A DNA stretch of 64,000 nucleotides from Sinimarinibacterium arenosum. GTDB taxonomy: Bacteria; Pseudomonadota; Gammaproteobacteria; Nevskiales; Nevskiaceae. The position numbers and the translations under genes were made by a program. This document shows, in pieces, positions 15,869 to 28,607 of this stretch. The stretch spans positions 422,745-486,744 of the forward strand of contig NZ_SUKF01000001.1 of assembly GCF_005047655.1 (NCBI RefSeq), in the 5' to 3' direction. Below the pieces are notes generated by a model that saw only the letters and a list, made by a program, of their open reading frames with translations, was not told the origin of the DNA and ran no database searches. Within the stretch, counting starts at the first letter, position 1; each line of letters opens with the position of its first letter.

Positions 15869-16049
15869 CCCGCGCGTCGAGTCCAGGACGGGTGGGCGTG
15901 GCGTTGGCGCATCGTCGCCAGTGGCTGCAATCGAGTCAGTCTCTCGGCAACGGGGCTGCCTTCTGGCTTCGTCATGCGGCTGGACTTGCGCGCATCCCGC
16001 GGGCAGTCTCTGCTGAAAGCACTTTGCGGCGCAGGCGCGCACAAGCCCT

Positions 16050-17321
16050 ATGAGTCCCATCGCGTTGGAAGACACAGTCCATCAGGCCCTGGCAGCCGTC
16101 CAGGGCGCATTCAACGCGCCTGAGACCTATATGCAGCTCGGCGCTGCTGTGGCGGCCGTGCTGTTGGCCTGGATGCTGTCCTCGCGCATCGCCGCACTCG
16201 GCTCGGACGCGAGCTGGCTGCGACGGCTCGTTGCGCGCAGCCACAAGTTGTTGATGCCGGCGATGACAGCACTACTGCTGATGGTTGCTGCGGCTGCGTG
16301 CAAGACCTTGATGGGTGAGCAGTGGTTGCTGCGTGGCGCCGTAGTGCTGGCCATGCTGTGGCTGTTCGAGCTTGGCATTCGCGTGCTGCAGGTTGGCCGC
16401 TTCGCCGCGTGGGCGCTGCATGTCGTCGGGCTGCCGATCCTGATCCTGCATCTGATGGGCTGGCTCAGCCCAATCACTGCCGTGCTCGAATCGATGGCGG
16501 TGGAGGTCGGCAGTCTGCGCTTCACCGCGGGGGGCGTGCTGCGCGTGCTGGTGTTCGGCTCGCTGCTGTTCTGGATCGGCTGGGTGTCCAACCGCGCCGG
16601 CCTGCAGGCGATCCGTCGCCAGGAGCGGCTGGACCTGCGTACGCGCGAAGTCGTCGCCAAGCTGTTCCAGATCGGCGTTTCGGTGCTGGTGTGCCTGCTG
16701 CTGTTGCAGGTTATGGGCATCAACCTGACTGCGCTGGCCGTGTTCGGCGGCGCGCTCGGTGTCGGCCTCGGTTTCGGGCTGCAGTCGATCGCGTCCAACT
16801 TCATCAGCGGCATCATCATCCTGTTCGACCGCTCGTTGTCGGTCGGCGACTACGTCGAGATCGAAGACGGTCAGGCGGGTTACGTGCGCGAGCTGACGCT
16901 GCGCTACACCACGCTGGAAACCTTCGACGGCAAGAACGTGCTGGTGCCCAACGAAACCTTCATCACCAAGGCCTTCACCAACTGGACGCACAAGGATCAT
17001 CAGCAGCGTTACCGCGTGGACTTCTCGGTTGCGTACTCCACGGATATCCGCAAGCTGTGCGAACTGATTCGCGAAACCGTCAAACAGCACCCGCAGGTCA
17101 TCAGCGGCGATCACCTGCCGATCGAGATGCGCCCCGACTGCGAGATCGACAGCTTCGGCGACTCCGGCGTCAACATGTTCGTCGAGTTCTGGATGGAAGG
17201 AGTCGACGATGGCCGCAACCGCGTCGGCGGCGATCTGCTGCTGATGATCTTCGAAGCCCTCAGAGAGAACGGCATCGAGATTCCATTCCCGCAACGCGAG
17301 GTGCGGGTGCTTCGCAGCTAA
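16050..17321 (+). CDS. MscS-family mechanosensitive channel
   Basis: The 423-residue protein is a small-conductance mechanosensitive channel of the MscS family, which opens on osmotic downshock. Several membrane helices occupy residues about 30-215. The Gly/Ala-rich pore helix (G-V-G-L-G-F-G-L-Q-S-I-A-S-N-F near 240) is followed by the beta domain (D-R-S-L-S-V-G-D-Y-V-E-I, P-N-E-x-F-I) and the C-terminal domain. It is longer than E. coli MscS (286) because of extra N-terminal helices. No clear ribosome binding site precedes ATG 16050. Confidence 0.88.
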   Translation: MSPIALEDTVHQALAAVQGAFNAPETYMQLGAAVAAVLLAWMLSSRIAALGSDASWLRRLVARSHKLLMPAMTALLLMVAAAACKTLMGEQWLLRGAVVLAMLWLFELGIRVLQVGRFAAWALHVVGLPILILHLMGWLSPITAVLESMAVEVGSLRFTAGGVLRVLVFGSLLFWIGWVSNRAGLQAIRRQERLDLRTREVVAKLFQIGVSVLVCLLLLQVMGINLTALAVFGGALGVGLGFGLQSIASNFISGIIILFDRSLSVGDYVEIEDGQAGYVRELTLRYTTLETFDGKNVLVPNETFITKAFTNWTHKDHQQRYRVDFSVAYSTDIRKLCELIRETVKQHPQVISGDHLPIEMRPDCEIDSFGDSGVNMFVEFWMEGVDDGRNRVGGDLLLMIFEALRENGIEIPFPQREVRVLRS

Positions 17322-17520
17322 ACGGATAGGCCTGGCGCACGCTGCGCCATATGCCCCTCGTTCTGACAAGCGCTTGCGTAGGAAAATGGTGCAGGCTCTT
17401 GTAGCCCGCGCAGCGCTGCCTACCTCTTTGGACTCAGCTCGAGTACGATCCGGCGCAAGGACAACCGAATCAGATCGCAGTCTCGGCAACGGGACACATA
17501 ACGCGACTCGGGAGGGATGT

Positions 17521-18495
17521 ATGGCAGGAAGACGTCGCAGAAACGACGACGGGCCGGCGCAAGCCGTGCTCGGCGTATTCGTCATGCTCGGGGCTTGGCT
17601 GGCCCTCAAAACCGGTGGTCCGCCACAGGAACTACTGGGACGGCTGGTCGGGTTCTCGGCCGCGGCTCTGGTTCTCGGCTATGTGGCACTTACCGTCATG
17701 ACCCGTCTGTGTGGCAGTCGCGTCCCCGAGCGATTGGAGCCGGTATCCCCGCGAACGGTCGTGAATCGGCGTGAGTTCGTATACGCCGAGCCGGTTTTCC
17801 ACGATGAACGCGTCAATAACGAGACGCCTCAGCCTGCACCGGCAGACGAAATCAGCGCCGACGAACCATCCAATGCATGGTCGCTGGCATTGATCAGGGC
17901 GCTCGAATGGAAGCGCTTTGAAGAACTGTGCGAAGGCTTCTGGAAAGCCAAGGGCTATCCCGCCGAGCTGACCGCACCCGGTGCCGACGGCGGTGTCGAT
18001 GTGATCATCCGCGATCGCAGAGACCCGACCAAGGTCTTTGCCGTCATCCAGTGCAAGTCCTGGTTTGCCAAGCCGGTTGGGGTCGAGGCCGTGCGTGCGC
18101 TCTGGGGCGCCAAGGACCACTTCGGCGCCCAGCTCGCAATCTTCTACGGCTTGTCCGGCTTCACCCCGGATGCCCAGCACTTTGCCGATGAAAAGCATCT
18201 GAGCCTGATCCATGGCGGCAAGCTGCTGGTGCAGATCCTGTCGCTGCCGTTCGAGGCGCAACAGGAACTGCTGAAGCACGTCACCCGCGGTGACTACGTC
18301 ACGCCAACCTGTCCGAACTGCGACATCAAGATGGTGCGCCGAAATGGCAACGGCCGATTCACAGATTTCTTCGGCTGCAGCAACTATCCCCGCTGCAAGC
18401 GGACTTTCAATATTTCGCCCGAGCGAGCCAGTGCGCTTTCTGCAATGGCTGATTTACAGCCCTTCCCAGATCAAGTAAACCTCCAGCAAAGGTGA
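17521..18495 (+). CDS. Membrane-anchored Mrr-type nuclease with zinc ribbon
   Basis: The 324-residue protein has two N-terminal hydrophobic segments (about 13-30 and 42-60). An Mrr-type restriction endonuclease domain follows (about 120-250) with Asp160 and the Q-C-K motif (Gln177, Lys179) typical of Mrr. It ends with a topoisomerase-type zinc ribbon (Cys264, Cys267, Cys286, Cys292). It probably cleaves DNA, perhaps modified or foreign DNA, at the membrane. GGGAGGG precedes ATG 17521. The NERD-helicase gene starts 25 bp downstream, so the pair looks co-transcribed. Confidence 0.82.
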   Translation: MAGRRRRNDDGPAQAVLGVFVMLGAWLALKTGGPPQELLGRLVGFSAAALVLGYVALTVMTRLCGSRVPERLEPVSPRTVVNRREFVYAEPVFHDERVNNETPQPAPADEISADEPSNAWSLALIRALEWKRFEELCEGFWKAKGYPAELTAPGADGGVDVIIRDRRDPTKVFAVIQCKSWFAKPVGVEAVRALWGAKDHFGAQLAIFYGLSGFTPDAQHFADEKHLSLIHGGKLLVQILSLPFEAQQELLKHVTRGDYVTPTCPNCDIKMVRRNGNGRFTDFFGCSNYPRCKRTFNISPERASALSAMADLQPFPDQVNLQQR

Positions 18496-18520
18496 TCTAA
18501 ATCACCATAGGGAGTGGTAC

Positions 18521-20386
18521 ATGGCGGTGTTGCTGCCATCGTTGAGCGCCAGTGCTGGACGCATGACGTCCGGTGAGAGGCGTTTTGCCGAGCGCATTCT
18601 GCAGAAGCTCGAGGACGACTACAGCGTCTGGTACAACGTGCCGGTCGGCCCCAAGCAGCTGCATCCGGATTTCGTCGTCTTTCATCCCAGCCGTGGCTAT
18701 GTCGTGCTGGAGGTCAAGGACTGGAAGCTCGATACGATTCAGAGCCTCACGCTCAGCACCGCGACGTTGCTGACGGATCGCGGCCTCGTGAACGAGGTCA
18801 ACCCCATGACCCAGGCGCGCGTCTATGCGCTGGAAGTGGCGACGGCCCTGGAGCGCGACCCGGCGCTGCGTCGGTCAGCAGGCCAACCGTATGCCGGCAA
18901 GCTGATCATGCCGTATGGCTGGGGCGTGGTGCTGGCAAACATCACCCGCAAGCAGTTTGAATCCACAAACCTGGGAGAGGTGCTGCCGCCGGGAAATGTC
19001 ATCTGCCAGGACGAGATGACCGAGTCGGTGGATGCGGAACGTTTCCAGAAACGGCTGTGGGATATGTTCACGCAGGTCTTCTCCTGCAAGCTCAGCCTGC
19101 CGCAGGTCGAGCGCGTGCGCTGGCATCTGTTCCCCGAGCTGCGCATCTCGTCGGACAGCGGGCAGTTCGGTTTGTTTGACGAACAGGGTGAGAAGCAGTC
19201 CATCGCGATCCCGGACCTGATCAAGGTGATGGACATGCAGCAGGAGCTGCTGGCGCGATCACTCGGCTCCGGGCATCGCGTGATTCACGGTGTTGCAGGC
19301 TCCGGCAAGACGATGATTCTCGGTTATCGCTGTCTGCTGCTGGCCCGCACCCTGAGCAAGCCGATTCTCGTGCTCTGCTACAACGTCACGCTCGCGGCGC
19401 GCTTGCAACAGCTGCTGAGCGAGCGAGGTGTCGCAGCGAATGTGTCCGTGCGCAATTTCCATGACTGGTGCAAGGACATGCTCACCACCTACCAGCTGGA
19501 GAAGCCGAAGTACGATCGTGACTACGGCGCCTACACCGCCGAGCTAGTCGAGAAAACAATTCACGGCGTCGACATCGGCCAGATCCCCCGAGCGCAGTAC
19601 GGCGCCGTGTTGATTGATGAGGGGCATGACTTTGAACCGGAGTGGTTCAAGCTCGTCGTGCAGATGATCGACCCCGACAGTAACGCCATGCTGGTGTTGT
19701 ATGACGATGCGCAGTCCATCTACACCAAGAAGCAGCGCCGCAAATTCAGCTTCGCCAGCGTCGGCATTCAGGCACAGGGCCGCACCACGATTCTCAAGCT
19801 CAACTACCGAAACACGCTGGAAATCCTGTCGGTTGCCAAGGCCTTCGCCGAAGAGCTTTTGAACCCACAGGAATCCGATGAAGACAACGCCCCGATCATC
19901 GCGCCAGAAAGCGCAGGGCGCCGTGGCTCCATCCCGGAGCTGATCCGCTGTGCCAGTCCTTATGAAGAGGCGAGGCTGATCGCCGACCAGATTGAAGATG
20001 AGCGCGCACATGGGCGCTCGCTGTCAGACATCGGCGTGTTGTGTCGCAAACAGCGCCAGATGGATGCGATCAGTCATCAACTCAAGAAGCGCGGAATTCC
20101 CGTGCGCGTTGCCAAGGATCAGGACGACAAGCGCACGCTGTTTGAAGGCGAGCCCTCAGTGAAGGTTGTGACGTTGCATAGCAGCAAAGGCTTGGAATTC
20201 GGCGCGACGTTCATTCCCCGCATTTGTGAAATGCCGGGGAAGAACGAGGATGAATCGGATGAAGCGCGCTTGCTCTATGTGGGCATGACGCGGGCAACGG
20301 AGCGGTTGGTGATGACGCAGGTTGGCGAGTCGGATTTTTCGCTGCGCCTGAAGCAATCTATTGGCCAAGTGAGTTCGTTGGCCTAG
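18521..20386 (+). CDS. NERD nuclease-UvrD-type helicase fusion
   Basis: The 621-residue protein starts with a NERD nuclease-related domain (about 15-125) with intact PD-ExK-like residues: Glu19, Asp50, and Glu64-x-Lys66. An SF1 UvrD/Rep-type helicase follows: Walker A G-V-A-G-S-G-K-T near 257, D-E-G-H-D near 364, L-N-Y-R-N-T, L-H-S-S-K-G-L-E-F, and Y-V-G-M-T-R-A near 585. It should unwind and cut DNA, as nuclease-helicase antiphage proteins do. It is not a Gabija GajB, because no TOPRIM ATPase partner is present. GGGAG lies 7 nt before the ATG. Confidence 0.88.
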   Translation: MAVLLPSLSASAGRMTSGERRFAERILQKLEDDYSVWYNVPVGPKQLHPDFVVFHPSRGYVVLEVKDWKLDTIQSLTLSTATLLTDRGLVNEVNPMTQARVYALEVATALERDPALRRSAGQPYAGKLIMPYGWGVVLANITRKQFESTNLGEVLPPGNVICQDEMTESVDAERFQKRLWDMFTQVFSCKLSLPQVERVRWHLFPELRISSDSGQFGLFDEQGEKQSIAIPDLIKVMDMQQELLARSLGSGHRVIHGVAGSGKTMILGYRCLLLARTLSKPILVLCYNVTLAARLQQLLSERGVAANVSVRNFHDWCKDMLTTYQLEKPKYDRDYGAYTAELVEKTIHGVDIGQIPRAQYGAVLIDEGHDFEPEWFKLVVQMIDPDSNAMLVLYDDAQSIYTKKQRRKFSFASVGIQAQGRTTILKLNYRNTLEILSVAKAFAEELLNPQESDEDNAPIIAPESAGRRGSIPELIRCASPYEEARLIADQIEDERAHGRSLSDIGVLCRKQRQMDAISHQLKKRGIPVRVAKDQDDKRTLFEGEPSVKVVTLHSSKGLEFGATFIPRICEMPGKNEDESDEARLLYVGMTRATERLVMTQVGESDFSLRLKQSIGQVSSLA

Positions 20387-20696
20387 GTATTTTGAGTTCA
20401 GAAGTTGCGTTTTCCAAGCCGGATCGTCTGCATTGTTCCAGGGGCGGTAGGTCTGCTAGGCGAAAAGTGTGTTTTGTGGTGCTTCTATATTGACGTCCTC
20501 TTTCACTCTGATGCAGGTCGAGCAGCGTGGCTGCTCTCGTTGCTCTTCGTCTAGAGAGAGAATTTAATTTTAAGAGTGCCGGCTTGCTGTCGACAGAGCT
20601 CGCGCAATTGACCATTCCACATCAAATATTTGATTCAGGAAGTGTCCGATTAAGAGTTTTATCGATTTAATTTTAGAAGAATGGAAGTATTAGTCG
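20387..20696. other. Low-G+C intergenic region before the ATPase/HNH pair
   Basis: I see no gene in these 310 bp. Base composition changes here from the G+C-rich upstream genes to markedly A+T-richer DNA that continues through the next two genes. A 7-bp hairpin (GAGCAGC / GCTGCTC, 3-nt loop) is at 20520-20536 and could end the NERD-helicase transcript. The last 90 bp is very A+T-rich and should hold the promoter for the ATPase gene. I found no retron-like structure. Confidence 0.4.
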
Positions 20697-22199
20697 ATGG
20701 CAAAACGCATTCGCTTCAAGGTTAGGCAACGTAATGAGAGCCTCTCTGAGACAGACGTTTTTGTTCTCACAACTGATAACTGGGACGACTACACCTACAA
20801 GGTGCAGTTCAATCTTGCGTATATCGATTCCTCTGGAATCGAGAATAAAATCGGTGAGATAAAAATTCTACAGGCCAAGAAGGGGGAGAAAGACATAGAG
20901 CATAGGACCCAACTTCCAGAGGATATATTTCAAGAATTGGGTGACAACTACATCTCTTTGGGCCATGAGTCGGATTACTACCAAACGCTGCACTCGATAT
21001 GTGGTGCGGAAGCACCTAAAGTCTTGGTGGCCCTACGAGACATCGCGTGGCAACCAGCATTGGCTCACCCATTCGAGACCAGTTCGGCGTTTAGAAACGC
21101 CTTGATGCGCTTCAATGTTGCCCATTCGAATAGGCGCTTCGGTGCCACGCTTGTTGTTGGAAAAACGCCAGAAGACTCTCCAAAGTTCAGATATTCCGGA
21201 ACGATACTGGGAGCTGCCGGGCCTACCGAAGCAGAGTTTAGATTTGACCCAAAAGACAAGGTGCCCGGGCGAGTTGTCGCCATAATTGGGCGCAATGCCG
21301 TTGGAAAGACTAGGTACTTGGCGCGACTAGGAGAGGACCTCGCGCAGATTGATCGGCTCTCCGAAGAATCCGTCAAGCAACGAGACAGTCGCTTTCCCGA
21401 CGGACGGCCAATTTTTACAAGGGTTGTTGCCATTTCCTACAGCGCCTTTGACCAGTTTAGAAGGCCAGCAGCTAACCCAAGAAGTAGTTATGTCTATTGC
21501 GGAATTCGCAGTGACAAAGGAACGCTTTCTCAAAGGGTGTTAATCGATGTTTATAAGAACAATCAAGAACGCATTCGCGAGATGGATAGAGACGATGACT
21601 GGACTGAGTACATGCAGCGGATTCTTGGAGACCAAAGCGAATCGTTGACCGCTCTCCTGGATGCCGAGATCTCTCCAAACACGCCGAGCGGAGGACAGCT
21701 GTCGCTCCTGAGCTCGGGACAAGCAATTCTGTCCCACTTTGTGACAGCTCTATTGGCTTGGATACAGCCGAACTCTTTGGTGCTATTCGATGAGCCGGAA
21801 ACTCACCTTCATCCAAATGCTGTCGCCAGCTTATTTATGGTCATGACAGCGATTCTTAAAAAGTACGATTCGTACGCTGTCGTAGCCACGCACTCACCGG
21901 TGGTTATTCAAGAGGTGCCTGCTGAACGGGTGATCGTGTTTACGCGAGAGGGCGACGTGACATCCGCGGAATCCCTGAGCGTAGAAAGTTTCGGAGAAAG
22001 CGTTTCAGAGTTGACTAGGCATGTTTTCGAGACCATAGAGGTCGAGAGTTTGTACCGAGACACGCTTAAGAAGCTCGCCGGCAACGAATCGGCGCAGGAG
22101 ATCATGCGCCGATTCCCGCTCGGCCTAAGCCTAAACGCGCAGGCATATCTTCTGGCTTACCTGCGTGCCTCTGAAGTAAATCGCGAGGCAGACGAATGA
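20697..22199 (+). CDS. AAA/ABC-type ATPase of a Septu-like defence pair
   Basis: The 500-residue ATPase has Walker A G-R-N-A-V-G-K-T (198-205), an ABC-like signature L-S-S-G-Q (338-342), Walker B L-V-L-F-D-E-P-E (361-368) and a switch histidine in A-T-H-S (400). That is the SMC/OLD-like ATPase layout. No TOPRIM domain follows, so it is not an OLD or GajA nuclease. It overlaps the HNH gene by 4 bp (ATGA), the gene order of PtuA-PtuB in Septu. Unlike PtuA, where Walker A is near the N-terminus, about 190 residues of unfamiliar sequence come first. Base composition is lower in G+C than most of the window. Confidence 0.82.
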   Translation: MAKRIRFKVRQRNESLSETDVFVLTTDNWDDYTYKVQFNLAYIDSSGIENKIGEIKILQAKKGEKDIEHRTQLPEDIFQELGDNYISLGHESDYYQTLHSICGAEAPKVLVALRDIAWQPALAHPFETSSAFRNALMRFNVAHSNRRFGATLVVGKTPEDSPKFRYSGTILGAAGPTEAEFRFDPKDKVPGRVVAIIGRNAVGKTRYLARLGEDLAQIDRLSEESVKQRDSRFPDGRPIFTRVVAISYSAFDQFRRPAANPRSSYVYCGIRSDKGTLSQRVLIDVYKNNQERIREMDRDDDWTEYMQRILGDQSESLTALLDAEISPNTPSGGQLSLLSSGQAILSHFVTALLAWIQPNSLVLFDEPETHLHPNAVASLFMVMTAILKKYDSYAVVATHSPVVIQEVPAERVIVFTREGDVTSAESLSVESFGESVSELTRHVFETIEVESLYRDTLKKLAGNESAQEIMRRFPLGLSLNAQAYLLAYLRASEVNREADE

Positions 22200-23044
22200 A
22201 GCGCCTCGTGCCGTTGAGCAATACCCCTTCGTACGTGGAACGGTACCTTCGAATTAGGGATTCTAAGTCAGCAGACGTTCGGGTTGAGCTCGAGTCAATT
22301 CACAGACCGATCGTTCGGCAATACGATTCTTATGCGCTGCAAGCTGCATCGCGGAATCTCGAAGTTGTTCGTCGAAGTCAGAGGTGCGCCACATCCGCGA
22401 ATGCCTTACGCCACTGTTACGACAGTCCGACGAATGCGTTGCGTGCATTGAAAAAAGAGATCAAGGAATTGCAGCCGAGGCGGCAACTGAAGTATTGCCC
22501 AATGTGTGGGGTTACGCTGCCGAAAACCTTCGATCACTACATGCCCGCCGCTAGATTCCCCGAGTACGCGGTGATGGCCTTAAATTTGATCCCGTGCTGT
22601 TCACAGTGCAATTCGATCAAGGACGATGACTGGTTGTCGACATCCGGCGAGCGGCAGTTCCTTCATCTCTACTTCGATTGCATTCCTGAGGAGCAGTACC
22701 TTTTCGTACAGCTCTTGAGTTCTGCCGACATGCGTGGTGTCGGTGCAAGTTTTGAGCTGCGACGCCCGTCAGGATTTCGCCGAAATAAATGGAGCCTGCT
22801 GACCTCTCACTATAAGCGCCTGAAGCTACTTGAACGATTTTCAGAAGAGGGCAACGAAGAGATTGCAGAGGTACTCGCAGGCTGCAAAGCACACTTGCAG
22901 GCAGGGGGGGGAAGTGCATCGCTGCTTCTTCAGAACTTGGCAAACGACCGTGCCACAGTTTACGGAGACAGCCATTGGAGAACGGTTCTGATGCGTGCGC
23001 TATCGACTTACTCGCGACTAGATCAATTGATTCCCTTGATCTAG
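22196..23044 (+). CDS. HNH endonuclease of a Septu-like defence pair
   Basis: The 282-residue protein has a central zinc-supported HNH nuclease fold. C-P-M-C (Cys101, Cys104) is followed by F-D-H-Y-x-P (Asp113, His114), F-P-E-Y-A, N-L-x-x-C-C-x-x-C-N (Cys134, Cys138, Asn139) and Lys142. These catalytic and zinc positions look intact. The flanking helical regions are unfamiliar. Its start codon overlaps the ATPase stop (ATGA), implying translational coupling. By analogy with PtuB, the ATPase would gate this nuclease during phage infection; that role is inference. Confidence 0.82.
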   Translation: MKRLVPLSNTPSYVERYLRIRDSKSADVRVELESIHRPIVRQYDSYALQAASRNLEVVRRSQRCATSANALRHCYDSPTNALRALKKEIKELQPRRQLKYCPMCGVTLPKTFDHYMPAARFPEYAVMALNLIPCCSQCNSIKDDDWLSTSGERQFLHLYFDCIPEEQYLFVQLLSSADMRGVGASFELRRPSGFRRNKWSLLTSHYKRLKLLERFSEEGNEEIAEVLAGCKAHLQAGGGSASLLLQNLANDRATVYGDSHWRTVLMRALSTYSRLDQLIPLI

Positions 23045-23119
23045 CTTGTAAACGGAGTTGCTCGATTGCTGAAACACCTACCGCCTGCTTAGGGGCTTAT
23101 AGCCAGTGTGTGATGTATA

Positions 23120-23192
23120 TCCGCGCTGAGATTGATTTAGTGGAATGTCTTTTTGAAGGCGTCTACCGGTTCCTTAACAATCTCAGCGCGGA
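23120..23192. repeat. 15-bp perfect inverted repeat at the island edge
   Basis: TCCGCGCTGAGATTG (23120-23134) recurs exactly as its reverse complement at 23178-23192, with 43 bp between. The right copy encodes the C-terminal codons of the minus-strand isomerase-like gene; the left copy is non-coding, after the HNH gene. It may be a bidirectional terminator with a long loop, or a partial inverted duplication left when the defence genes arrived. Confidence 0.55.
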
Positions 23193-23678
23193 CACCCCAA
23201 TCAACGCCAGCGCCGCAATCGTGAACGGAATCGTGCTCGCGCCCACCAGATAGCCGATGGTGCCGAGCCAATCGGCTTCGCCGTACTTTGTGATACCGGC
23301 AGATAATCCTCTATTATTTGATAGATTGGCACAGTGGAAAAAGATGGTGTTGCCCCAGCCGGTGTAGACCATGCCCCAGACGATCCAGGCCTGGGCGCGG
23401 CGGGTGGCGTGGATGTGCGGCAGGGCGAGGCCGGCGATCATCATCATCAGTCCGTTCATGACGCCGGCCACATGGGCGACGCGCCAGCCGCGTTCGCTGC
23501 CGGGGATGACGGCGTGCGCGTCGATCGTGATCGGCCAGACGCTGATGGCTTCCAGGATCACGAAGACGAAACCGAAGCCGGACAGCAGGCCGATGATGGC
23601 GATGAGGGCGCCGTGCATCAGCAGGCGCAGGCGGCCGCGGGCCGCGGTGTCCTGCGTGTCAGTGGGGGAATGATCCAT
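23163..23678 (-). CDS. Styrene-oxide-isomerase-like membrane protein
   Basis: The 171-residue protein has four hydrophobic segments and resembles styrene oxide isomerase (StyC) across its length. Shared phrases are G-S-x-x-G-W-x-x-A-H, the following M-N-G-x-M, the N-R-G-L-x-x-G motif and a final I-G-x-x-A-L helix. His69 and Asn75 correspond to the heme-linked His/Asn pair described for that enzyme. It may isomerise an epoxide, but no styrene degradation genes are nearby, so the substrate is unknown. GAGGAG precedes the ATG. An AraC regulator gene lies directly upstream. Confidence 0.65.
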   Translation of the reverse strand: MDHSPTDTQDTAARGRLRLLMHGALIAIIGLLSGFGFVFVILEAISVWPITIDAHAVIPGSERGWRVAHVAGVMNGLMMMIAGLALPHIHATRRAQAWIVWGMVYTGWGNTIFFHCANLSNNRGLSAGITKYGEADWLGTIGYLVGASTIPFTIAALALIGVSALRLLRNR

Positions 23679-23828
23679 TGTTCTCCTCGCTTTTTATGTG
23701 CGCCTCTTCGCCCGAGATGCGGTCCCGCTTCGGAGCAGTCCGCTATTGGCGAGGGCTCAGTTGATCTTATTAACTTAACACCGTCAACTTATTGAGCCGC
23801 AGCCGGCATCGGGCGGTGCGTCAGCGGC

Positions 23829-24863
23829 TTATTTGAAGACTTCGCGTCGGTATTGGCTCGGCGAGACGCCGGTCCACTTGGTGAAGGCGCGGGTGAAGGT
23901 GGTGCGGTCGGAGAAGCCGAGCTTGGTGGCGATGGCGTCGATGTCCAGCGCGCGGTCCATCAGCATGGTCCTGGCGGCGCTGCTGCGGACGGCGGTCTGG
24001 ATGTCGATGAACGAAGTGCCGGCGTCCTTGAGGCTGCGTTGCAGGCTGCGTTCGCCCATCTTCAGGCGGGCGGCGACGTCCCGGATCGACATCGAGGGTT
24101 TCTGGGACAGCAGCACTTCGATGGTGTGGGCAAGGCCGCTGTCAGCGCGCAGTTCCTGCAGGCGGCGTTCGAGTCTCAGCTGAGCCTTGGCGTGCAGGGT
24201 GGCGGAGCGGTGCGGCAGCTCCAGATCCAGATAGCGGATGGGGAAGCGGATGCCGTCATGCTCGGCGCCGAACACCGGATCAGTGTGGTACTGCCTGCGG
24301 TAATCGGCGGCGGCAATCATCGGCTGGTGGCGAAAGAAGACTTCAAAGTCCAGCGCCTGTCCCATCATCTGTTCAATCAGGCGCGTGACGACGGCGATCA
24401 CTACTTCCATGTAGGTGGCGTACCCCTGACGCTCGTCGCGACCATGCAGTTCGAAGCGGATGGTGACGGTCTCGGGATCGATTGCGTAGTCGGCGTGCAG
24501 CTCGGGGTTCAGCAGGATCGGCAGGTTGCCCAGCAGCGGCAGGACCTGTCGCAGCGAGGTGCACGAAGCGAGGTAGGCGTCGATCTCCGGCGCCTGGTCG
24601 AAGGCGAAGTAGTTGCCGAGCACGAAGGGGAAGTGCGCTCGGGTCGAATGCGCGACGGCGGACTCGTGCAGGCGCACGAGCACGTCGATATCCGGATAGG
24701 TGGCGGTGTCGGCGGTGTCGTAACCGCTGGGGTTGACCTCGCGCAGCACCTGATCGAGATTGAACCCGCAGATCACGCTGACGCGTGCGAACAGGGACAG
24801 GACGTGCGGGTTGAGAGTCAGCACCGGGGCAGGGTGTGGCGGAAGGGAGAGAAACTCTGCCAC
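23829..24863 (-). CDS. AraC-family transcriptional regulator
   Basis: The 344-residue regulator has an N-terminal ligand-binding region of the Arabinose_bd type (about 20-200) and a C-terminal AraC helix-turn-helix domain (about 255-344). The domain ends in the recognisable I-A-x-x-L-G-F-S-D-R-T-T-F-T-R-A-F-x-x-W-x-G-x-x-P-S-Q-Y-R pattern. It probably controls a neighbour, either the isomerase-like gene downstream or the hydrolase gene upstream. The reading frame extends further, but that part overlaps the hydrolase gene and is low-complexity. I chose GTG 24863; GTG 24824 is an alternative. Confidence 0.82.
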   Translation of the reverse strand: MAEFLSLPPHPAPVLTLNPHVLSLFARVSVICGFNLDQVLREVNPSGYDTADTATYPDIDVLVRLHESAVAHSTRAHFPFVLGNYFAFDQAPEIDAYLASCTSLRQVLPLLGNLPILLNPELHADYAIDPETVTIRFELHGRDERQGYATYMEVVIAVVTRLIEQMMGQALDFEVFFRHQPMIAAADYRRQYHTDPVFGAEHDGIRFPIRYLDLELPHRSATLHAKAQLRLERRLQELRADSGLAHTIEVLLSQKPSMSIRDVAARLKMGERSLQRSLKDAGTSFIDIQTAVRSSAARTMLMDRALDIDAIATKLGFSDRTTFTRAFTKWTGVSPSQYRREVFK

Positions 24864-27075: not shown

Positions 27076-27849
27076 TCATGGCGCGCTCTCGGTTTCGCCA
27101 AGTTCTACCTTGACGATTTGCCGCAGCGACACCGCCAAGGCGACTGAGTGCGTCCCGAACATTGATGCAACTTCCATCGTCGAAGCCCAGTAACGCAATT
27201 CGTTCATCAGTGATTTGTCCTGACTGATGGCTTCGACAATGCTGCGCGCGTCTGCCTCGCTGATCGGTGAGTCGCAATCGAGCAAGCGTTGTATCTCTGA
27301 ATCGGCCGCGTAGCAGTGATTCCAGATATGGGATTGCACTGAGAGCGGAATGAGTCCGCGAACGTGCATGCGATACGCGGGTCGCTCCGTAATGATCGGG
27401 TTGGCCGCAGACCGGTAATATTTCGCGAGGCTGTCACGCAATTTTGTGTTGGCGATCAGGCCGAGTTCGCCGGCGCTTTTCAGTTCTTCGTAGGTTGAAT
27501 TCGCGGGGTAGAACTCGGCAACTTGGCTTGCCTGGAAATATGCGACCAGCAATCGCCATTGGGAAAGGCCGTCTGCATCGCCGCTTTCGGCATAAGCCGC
27601 CGCTTTCGCGCCGTAGTCGTAGACTTCTCCCCAGAACTGAAGGCGATCGCGATAAGTGGCGATGTCAGTGTCGAGATCGGTCGCGATCCTTTCAAGGAAA
27701 GCTTGCGCTCGGGCCCGATCTACGCGTGCCTCGTTCCAGTTCGAGACCTGAATACCGATGAAGACGCCCACGACAACGATGACGAAGTCGAGGATTACCG
27801 CGGTCCAATTCTGCGCTTTCACATGTTCGATGACGCGCGAGAGGATCAT
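27076..27849 (-). CDS. DUF6090-like membrane protein (second of pair)
   Basis: The 257-residue protein starts with M-I-L-S-R-V-I-E-H-V-K followed by a hydrophobic helix D-F-V-I-V-V-V-G-V-F-I-G-I-Q and a W-N-E, the signature of DUF6090-type proteins. The rest is a soluble, mostly helical domain of unknown role. Its start overlaps the stop of the upstream paralogue by 4 bp (ATGA), so the two are translationally coupled. The shared anchor suggests that the proteins associate in the membrane; that is inference. Confidence 0.7.
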   Translation of the reverse strand: MILSRVIEHVKAQNWTAVILDFVIVVVGVFIGIQVSNWNEARVDRARAQAFLERIATDLDTDIATYRDRLQFWGEVYDYGAKAAAYAESGDADGLSQWRLLVAYFQASQVAEFYPANSTYEELKSAGELGLIANTKLRDSLAKYYRSAANPIITERPAYRMHVRGLIPLSVQSHIWNHCYAADSEIQRLLDCDSPISEADARSIVEAISQDKSLMNELRYWASTMEVASMFGTHSVALAVSLRQIVKVELGETESAP

Positions 27850-28607
27850 GGTATCGGAGCCTTTTCAGGCGAATGATGAATGCCGATTTCTGCGTCCAGC
27901 ACATCGTGCAATGCCGATAGCTGTCGGCTGACCGGCAGTACTGCGCGCTCGGTGTAGACGCTGTACATATATGCGTTCTCGCTGACTTCGTTTCGGAAAA
28001 CGCGGTCTGCACGCATGGCGCGTGTATCGCATTCGGGGTTGAGCCACAGCGAGTCGACCCCAAGACGGGACGGGCCGAGATGATGCGTGATCAGGCGCGG
28101 GAAGGCTCGTCCGAGATCGTGGCCGGAGCGACTGATCGCCGTGGTGAGATCGCGCGCCCGTGCTGCATCTTGCATGTAATTCAATATGGCTGTGCGGACC
28201 GGCGTCGAGGTGAGCTGATCGAGCCGGCCCGTCGACAGTAGCTCGATCACCGTCGGGAGTTCTGCGGGCGGCACCGTCGTATGGGCGGATCCGACGATGG
28301 CGTCACAGTGCTCCAGCGACAACACCTGATCTGTATCACTGCTGTTGAGATGGTCAACGGCATTGATCAGTGCGCGGGAGAATTTCGTTCGAGTTCGATC
28401 ATAGATTGAACGCGTTTCGATCAGCTTCTCAACTTCACTATGCAGACGGTCGAGATACTCATGCTCATTTTTCTGCCGCCCCCGCTCAACGGCCCAGTCC
28501 TGCGCCTGAAGGCCGATAAAGACGCCGACGACGACGATGACGAAATCAATGACGATCGCCGTCCAGTGCTGATTCTTCACATGCTCAACAATGCGACGCA
28601 GGATCAT
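27846..28607 (-). CDS. DUF6090-like membrane protein (first of pair)
   Basis: The 253-residue paralogue of the next gene has the same first 35 residues in pattern (E-H-V-K-x-Q-x-W-T-A, then D-F-V-I-V-V-V-G-V-F-I-G-x-Q). Its downstream domain has diverged almost beyond recognition. One membrane helix (about 20-36) would anchor a cytoplasmic or periplasmic helical domain. Function is unknown. GGAGA lies 10 nt before the ATG. The pair probably arose by tandem duplication, with selection on the anchor and divergence of the remainder. Confidence 0.7.
   Translation of the reverse strand: MILRRIVEHVKNQHWTAIVIDFVIVVVGVFIGLQAQDWAVERGRQKNEHEYLDRLHSEVEKLIETRSIYDRTRTKFSRALINAVDHLNSSDTDQVLSLEHCDAIVGSAHTTVPPAELPTVIELLSTGRLDQLTSTPVRTAILNYMQDAARARDLTTAISRSGHDLGRAFPRLITHHLGPSRLGVDSLWLNPECDTRAMRADRVFRNEVSENAYMYSVYTERAVLPVSRQLSALHDVLDAEIGIHHSPEKAPIP

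Follow-up and report, generated by a model that had tools for sequence, protein, structure and literature searches.

The window analysed here is a 64,000-nucleotide stretch of Sinimarinibacterium arenosum DNA, in which two overlapping plus-strand genes encode an ATPase and an HNH nuclease. The first ORF (20697-22199, 500 aa) encodes a predicted ABC/OLD-like ATPase of the PDC-M01A type, related to Ea59 of phage lambda, and the second (22196-23044, 282 aa) encodes a predicted HNH nuclease of the PDC-M01B type, related to lambda Ea31; the two share the nucleotides ATGA (22196-22199). A non-coding gap of 310 bp (20387-20696) lies 5' of the pair. The first-pass annotation, made from the sequence alone, had placed the start of the locus at 20387, which is instead the end of the previous gene. 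Promoter-like sites in the gap occur at chance frequency, and no Rfam match was found within 16000-24500. The G+C content is 0.505 in the ATPase gene, 0.524 in the HNH gene and 0.445 in the gap, compared with 0.617 in the window, which bears out the compositional drop described in that annotation.

Sequence and a 72-row alignment place the ATPase motifs as follows, all on the plus strand: Walker A (GRNAVGKT) at residues 198-205 (21288-21311), the ABC signature (LSSGQ) at residues 338-342 (21708-21722), Walker B (LVLFDEPE) at residues 361-368 (21777-21800), and the H-loop (ATHS) at residues 397-400 (21885-21896). Residues G198, K204, S339, G341, D365, E366, and H399 are identical in 72/72 aligned rows, the window included. 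The Pfam families AAA_21 and AAA_15 exceed their cut-offs on this protein. OLD family nucleases differ from it by a Toprim domain, which Pfam did not find in the window ATPase. The core of the HNH protein (22496-22609, plus strand) is flanked by helical regions on both sides and holds intact zinc cysteines (C101, C104, C135, and C138), the D113-H114 pair and N130, where H114 and N130 are the predicted catalytic residues; the four cysteines, H114 and N130 are likewise identical in all 72 aligned rows, the window again included. Such identity of the active-site residues of both proteins means that their presence is not due to chance. The overlap and the motifs named in the first-pass annotation are confirmed, with Walker A at the residues given there. 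The 72-row alignments omit plasmid and phage loci (L013-L020), near-duplicates (L024, L028, L035, L038, L041, L045, L059, and L064), broken or short ATPase frames (L060, L112), viral loci without an ATPase match (L034, L036, and L050), and weak or other matches (L065-L073, L114-L153).

Membership of PDC-M01 and relation to Septu

Both proteins match models of the PADLOC candidate system PDC-M01. According to PADLOC-DB, the PDC-M01A model PDLC04244 matches the ATPase at E 2.1e-132 over residues 13-487 of 500, and the PDC-M01B model PDLC04266 matches the HNH protein at E 6.9e-65 over residues 12-271 of 282. The HNH protein is matched by 33 PADLOC families, of which the top 25 are all PDC-M01B, and PDC-M01B models are matched by 72/72 aligned HNH rows. 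The window pair also conforms to the PDC-M01 models and relatives in gene order (A then B, adjacent) and in lengths, and nothing tested set it apart from PDC-M01. Judged by these profile matches, the pair belongs to a catalogued candidate and is not a new system. The PDC set reportedly stems from a guilt-by-embedding preprint. PDC systems have been described as unpublished candidates of Payne et al., and PDC-M01 has been called in Floricoccus and in the B. cereus group (PMC11811056, PMC11758030; these and the other papers named below are cited from extracts). The listings and extracts of open-licence PubMed Central literature yielded no functional test for any member of PDC-M01.

PDC-M01 resembles Septu (PtuAB) in that both consist of an OLD/ABC-like ATPase followed by an HNH nuclease, with a profile match between the HNH cores. 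In a Foldseek search with the ATPase model, PtuA chains ranked first (9kjz_B, 1.4e-9; TM-scores no higher than about 0.4), and hhalign gave 99.5% for the ATPase against PtuA over part of its length, from the ABC signature onward. The value for the HNH protein against PtuB was 97.1%, over residues 81-213 only, with the HNH flanks unaligned; Foldseek of the HNH model against the PDB returned no significant fold match, PtuB included (best E 1.7). Walker A lies at residue 198 in the window ATPase. Of 12 PtuA frames compared, 10 showed the Walker A pattern, at residues 28-49, and a profile of the N-terminal domain matched 0/12 PtuA. NCBIfam PtuA scored 25 bits on the window ATPase against a cut-off of 500, and NCBIfam PtuB scored 12 bits (E 0.13) on the window HNH against a cut-off of 150. 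In a tree of the ATPase core (39 PDC-M01 rows, 12 PtuA and 19 others, N-terminal domain excluded), 38/39 PDC-M01 rows formed one clade (100/99) apart from PtuA, with L149 outside. Because the scores stay far below the NCBIfam PtuA and PtuB cut-offs and the ATPase clade is separate, we assign the pair, on sequence grounds, to PDC-M01 as a Septu-like family rather than to Septu itself.

It is unlikely that the pair is plain Septu, namely PtuAB with an added ATPase domain and the same working as PtuAB. The first rank of PtuA among solved structures would suit this explanation, as would the 41 PDC-M01/Septu double calls in B. cereus genomes (PMC11811056) and the PADLOC model PDLC00282, labelled PtuA1|PtuA, which matches the window ATPase at 7e-73 (residues 20-494 of 500). 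However, PDLC00282 also matches lambda Ea59 at 5.4e-184, so it is probably a PDC-M01-type model under a PtuA label, which may account for some of the double calls. The separate clade, the position of Walker A, the N-terminal profile, the NCBIfam scores and the confined PtuB alignment all argue against plain Septu as well.

The first-pass annotation had described a PtuA-PtuB layout and proposed either a divergent Septu subtype or a new ATPase-HNH system. The likeness to Septu stands, with PtuA structures ranked first, and two other nuclease-type genes lie directly 5' of the pair. The pair is probably not plain Septu; nor is it new, as both proteins closely match a system already catalogued, although PDC-M01 is a candidate system. 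The comparison of HMMs and structures with PtuA/PtuB gave a Septu-like ATPase and a partial HNH match, both within PDC-M01. The N-terminal domain and the HNH flanks are indeed unlike PtuA/PtuB, but the domain that had seemed extra is typical of the PDC-M01 family.

Two other known systems were compared. Retron type I-A (Eco7/Ec78), which has PtuA/PtuB-like effectors together with a reverse transcriptase and an msr-msd RNA, was ruled out: a Pfam scan of 12 window genes showed no reverse transcriptase, and the Rfam search near the pair was likewise empty. The WonAB/PD-T4-4 class combines an OLD-ABC ATPase with a restriction-type nuclease, and WonAB, carried by prophages, is reported to defend with two genes, one for an OLD-like ABC ATPase and one for a nuclease (PMC12137116); its nuclease is predicted to be PD-(D/E)xK, whereas that of the window pair is HNH.

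Recurrence of the pair and the N-terminal domain

Bacterial and archaeal genomes were scanned with the ATPase alone, which yielded at least 80 loci, so that the counts are those of a sample. In the 40 best of these at least 80 loci (L074-L113), the ATPase match starts at residue 29 or before, and the HNH gene lies directly downstream in 40/40, with a spacing of -113 to +5 nt; in one of them, L112, the ATPase frame is a fragment of just 204 aa. Among the other 40 of the 80 matches listed, a window-type HNH is present in four (L114, L115, L116, and L149) and not in 36, and it thus adjoins the ATPase in 44 of the 80 listed. All 36 listed loci without it match the ATPase from residue 190 onward only, and four of them (L118, L124, L129, and L138) have some other HNH-pattern ORF downstream. 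The distance matrices of the ATPase and HNH proteins correlate with r 0.87 over 72 pairs, against a maximum of 0.15 in 1000 permutations. Both proteins were matched in 43/53 viral loci (near-duplicates and two weak ones counted), and a viral scan with a single HNH query gave no confirmed match. PDC-M01-type pairs occur in genomes of several phyla, and the two genes move as a unit among bacteria and phages, with no third gene that accompanies them throughout.

The N-terminal domain of the ATPase (residues 1-158; 20697-21170, plus strand) is, as far as sequence goes, family-specific. In the AlphaFold2 model (whole-ATPase mean pLDDT 90.4) it consists of a beta-rich part and then helices, with a pLDDT of at least 88 in 15 of its 16 ten-residue blocks and of 84 in the last. 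Its near-invariant residues are W29 (69 of 72 rows), D31 (71), K56 (70), S87 (70), Y95 (71), D115 (68), and R138 (72); the 72/72 fill of the domain reflects alignment columns and is not a homology test. A domain profile was made with 49 rows, and E under 1e-3 was taken as a match. It matches 38/40 of the best of at least 80 genome loci, many of which are inside the profile and match partly by construction, and misses L112 (the fragment) and L113 (E 0.071). In the other 40 of the 80 listed, L115 matches and L116 reaches E 0.0011. Weak or fragmentary cases are L113 and L116, and L112 and L114, respectively. The profile is found in 39/44 listed loci with a window-type HNH and in 0/36 listed loci without it, and lambda Ea59 matches it at 6.8e-52.

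One Bacteroidota locus, L149, has a window-type HNH and lacks the N-terminal domain (E 3.6), with Walker A at residue 70. By these profile matches, the domain marks the PDC-M01 family with L149 as the one clear exception, owing to which a strict link between the domain and the window-type HNH does not hold. The L149 ATPase lies outside the PDC-M01 clade, yet its HNH is related to that of the window, a possible partner swap or intermediate. In Bacteroidota L076-L078 and others, such as L080, the longest frame is 633-647 aa, with a further N-terminal stretch. Pfam gave no match to the N-terminal domain for the window row, and a known domain as its identity was discarded because the searches of PDB profiles (best E 0.019), Pfam, and viral folds yielded no usable match. 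Since no relative of the domain was identified, its role as a candidate sensor or docking domain is a guess.

Origin and neighbourhood of the window pair

The window ATPase is sister to a viral contig (L021; 52% identity, 100/100). Within PDC-M01, the window pair shares a sub-branch with Bacteroidota and two viral contigs (L021, L023); for the ATPase this is a five-row clade (100/99) of the window, these contigs and two Bacteroidota sequences. The HNH gene is present in 1/11 genus genomes and in 7/194 relatives (own genome and weak matches counted), and a housekeeping role was ruled out on these counts. The drop in G+C, the viral and Bacteroidota clade and the presence in 1/11 genus genomes point to acquisition, so the window pair was probably acquired, in line with the transfer suggested earlier from its composition. 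In a genome of the same genus (G004), homology to the window ends at 20387 and 23163, on two separate contigs, both of which seem, judged by eye, to end in an insertion element. No direct-repeat scar was found at the edges of the locus. An inverted repeat at 23120-23192, whose 15-nt arms pair perfectly and are 43 nt apart, borders the low-G+C stretch on its downstream side.

Upstream of the pair are a gene for an Mrr_cat nuclease with a topoisomerase-type zinc ribbon (17521-18495; this start was chosen, and the longest frame begins at 17374) and, directly 5' of the pair, a gene for a NERD-UvrD helicase (18521-20386), which matches PADLOC C3a187 at 5.8e-186. These two are possibly a separate defence locus. 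Among the genes 3' of the pair, one encodes an AraC-type regulator and another a predicted metal-dependent hydrolase. Further on, two adjacent overlapping ORFs on the minus strand (27076-27849 and 27846-28607) have similar N-termini (EHVKxQxWTAxxxDFVIVVVGVFIG) and are apparently paralogues; the former has a weak Pfam DUF6090 match.

The neighbours of the relatives were also scanned, with 113 of 144 ORFs in the near set (within 4 kb) and 91 of 116 in the far set (beyond 6 kb). Near neighbours match pAgo/SIR2, type I restriction, HamA, LmuB, DruM, bacterial HORMA, and TIR, and they are diverse, with no family in more than 3/113 ORFs. The far set of 91 ORFs has defence matches too (86 families vs 194), so the near defence neighbours amount to no measured enrichment.

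Phage lambda ea59-ea31 and the proposed function

The window ATPase shares 27.5% identity with lambda Ea59 over 93% of the ATPase. In lambda, ea59 is followed by ea31 (HNH) in the same order as in the window pair, with a 4-nt overlap, and the two are located in the b region, adjoining int and its binding sites. With the PADLOC models, Ea59 matches PDC-M01A at 3.9e-201 and Ea31 matches PDC-M01B at 5.8e-113, which makes Ea59-Ea31, by profile, a clear PDC-M01 pair, closer to the models PDLC04235 and PDLC04256 than the window pair is. PADLOC itself presumably calls the lambda pair, and its makers may know of it. Previous studies scored ea59 and ea31 as nonessential by CRISPRi mapping, and several groups have deleted them (PMC10695390, PMC13119297, PMC7580223, PMC9764419), and the b2 region carrying them has been replaced (PMC12171280). 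Such dispensability agrees with a role in defence without proving one. The extracts of these five papers and of PMC3224144 and PMC12455587 contain no link of ea59 or ea31 to Septu or defence.

The location beside int and its binding sites, the presence in viral contigs and the label of ea59 as ATP-dependent endonuclease (PMC10695390) would agree with a function in phage or mobile-element maintenance (recombination, repair or DNA processing) and not in immunity. However, both genes were scored nonessential in lambda (PMC10695390), and the pair occurs in several phyla beside the assorted defence genes described above, so we consider maintenance rather improbable.

Several database records resemble lambda itself. 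The plasmid records NZ_CP104294 (L018), NZ_CP068597, and NZ_CP082339, from Stenotrophomonas, Paenibacillus, and Salmonella hosts, are 48,499-48,502 bp long, which is lambda's length. Each carries an ea59-like gene, and all three appear to be lambda DNA that was deposited as plasmids, perhaps a sequencing control. Locus L002 in G075 may also be lambda DNA. In the 48,361-bp record MW057783 (Campylobacter phage CJLB-4), ea59 is matched close to the lambda position with the same identity, and this record may be lambda.

For the window pair, the family, the conserved operon, the active sites invariant in the sample, the co-variation, the variable locus and the foreign composition are established. 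By analogy, its likely function would be a Septu-like two-gene defence with the ATPase controlling the nuclease. We think it fairly probable that this PDC-M01 member is an accessory, Septu-related anti-phage module, whose ATPase restrains the HNH protein and then releases it on infection. In such a module, the ATPase would dimerise on ATP as PtuA does and hold the HNH protein in an inactive state; an infection product would be sensed or docked by the N-terminal domain (residues 1-158); ATP turnover would free or reposition the nuclease; and the HNH would then cut DNA or tRNA of the phage or the host, by which the infection would stop. In Septu EcB88, the Walker and HNH residues are both reported to be required, and tRNA-Tyr is cut during infection (PMC13096335). 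The PtuAB of retron-Eco7 is reported to deplete tRNA-Tyr, and another Septu to act on DNA (PMC11555353).

The pair might also be an addiction (toxin-antitoxin) module that holds its element, with defence incidental, as it is mobile and consists of two genes for a nuclease and a likely controlling partner, and retron-Eco7 PtuAB is toxic on expression (PMC11555353). That toxicity, however, needs PtuA and PtuB together, with the retron as antitoxin (PMC11555353), and no antitoxin-like part was seen at the window locus, which leaves an addiction module very improbable. One larger island system of Mrr nuclease, NERD-UvrD helicase, ATPase and HNH, which are adjacent on the same strand at 17.5-23.0 kb, was rejected as extremely unlikely: a helicase-like match occurs in 1/92 related loci and a match to the Mrr gene in 0/92 (some flanks short), PADLOC lists the helicase under a separate family (C3a187), and this helicase looks like a neighbour and not a part of the pair because it is kept in G004 (87%) and G007 (62%), where the HNH was not found.

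The window pair itself is one more copy of the catalogued candidate PDC-M01, and the added value lies in the link to lambda ea59-ea31 and in the N-terminal domain as a mark of the family. Lambda ea59-ea31 gives PDC-M01 a laboratory representative, and with its membership, deletion phages that already exist allow a direct test of what these two poorly understood genes do. The lambda prophage has a known anti-phage system, rex. We tentatively regard it as a real possibility that PDC-M01 is a distinct immune family and no subtype of Septu, with its own N-terminal trigger domain and an enlarged HNH, spread over several phyla and hidden in lambda as ea59-ea31; if so, ea59-ea31 would add to rex another anti-phage system of the lambda prophage that has gone unrecognised.
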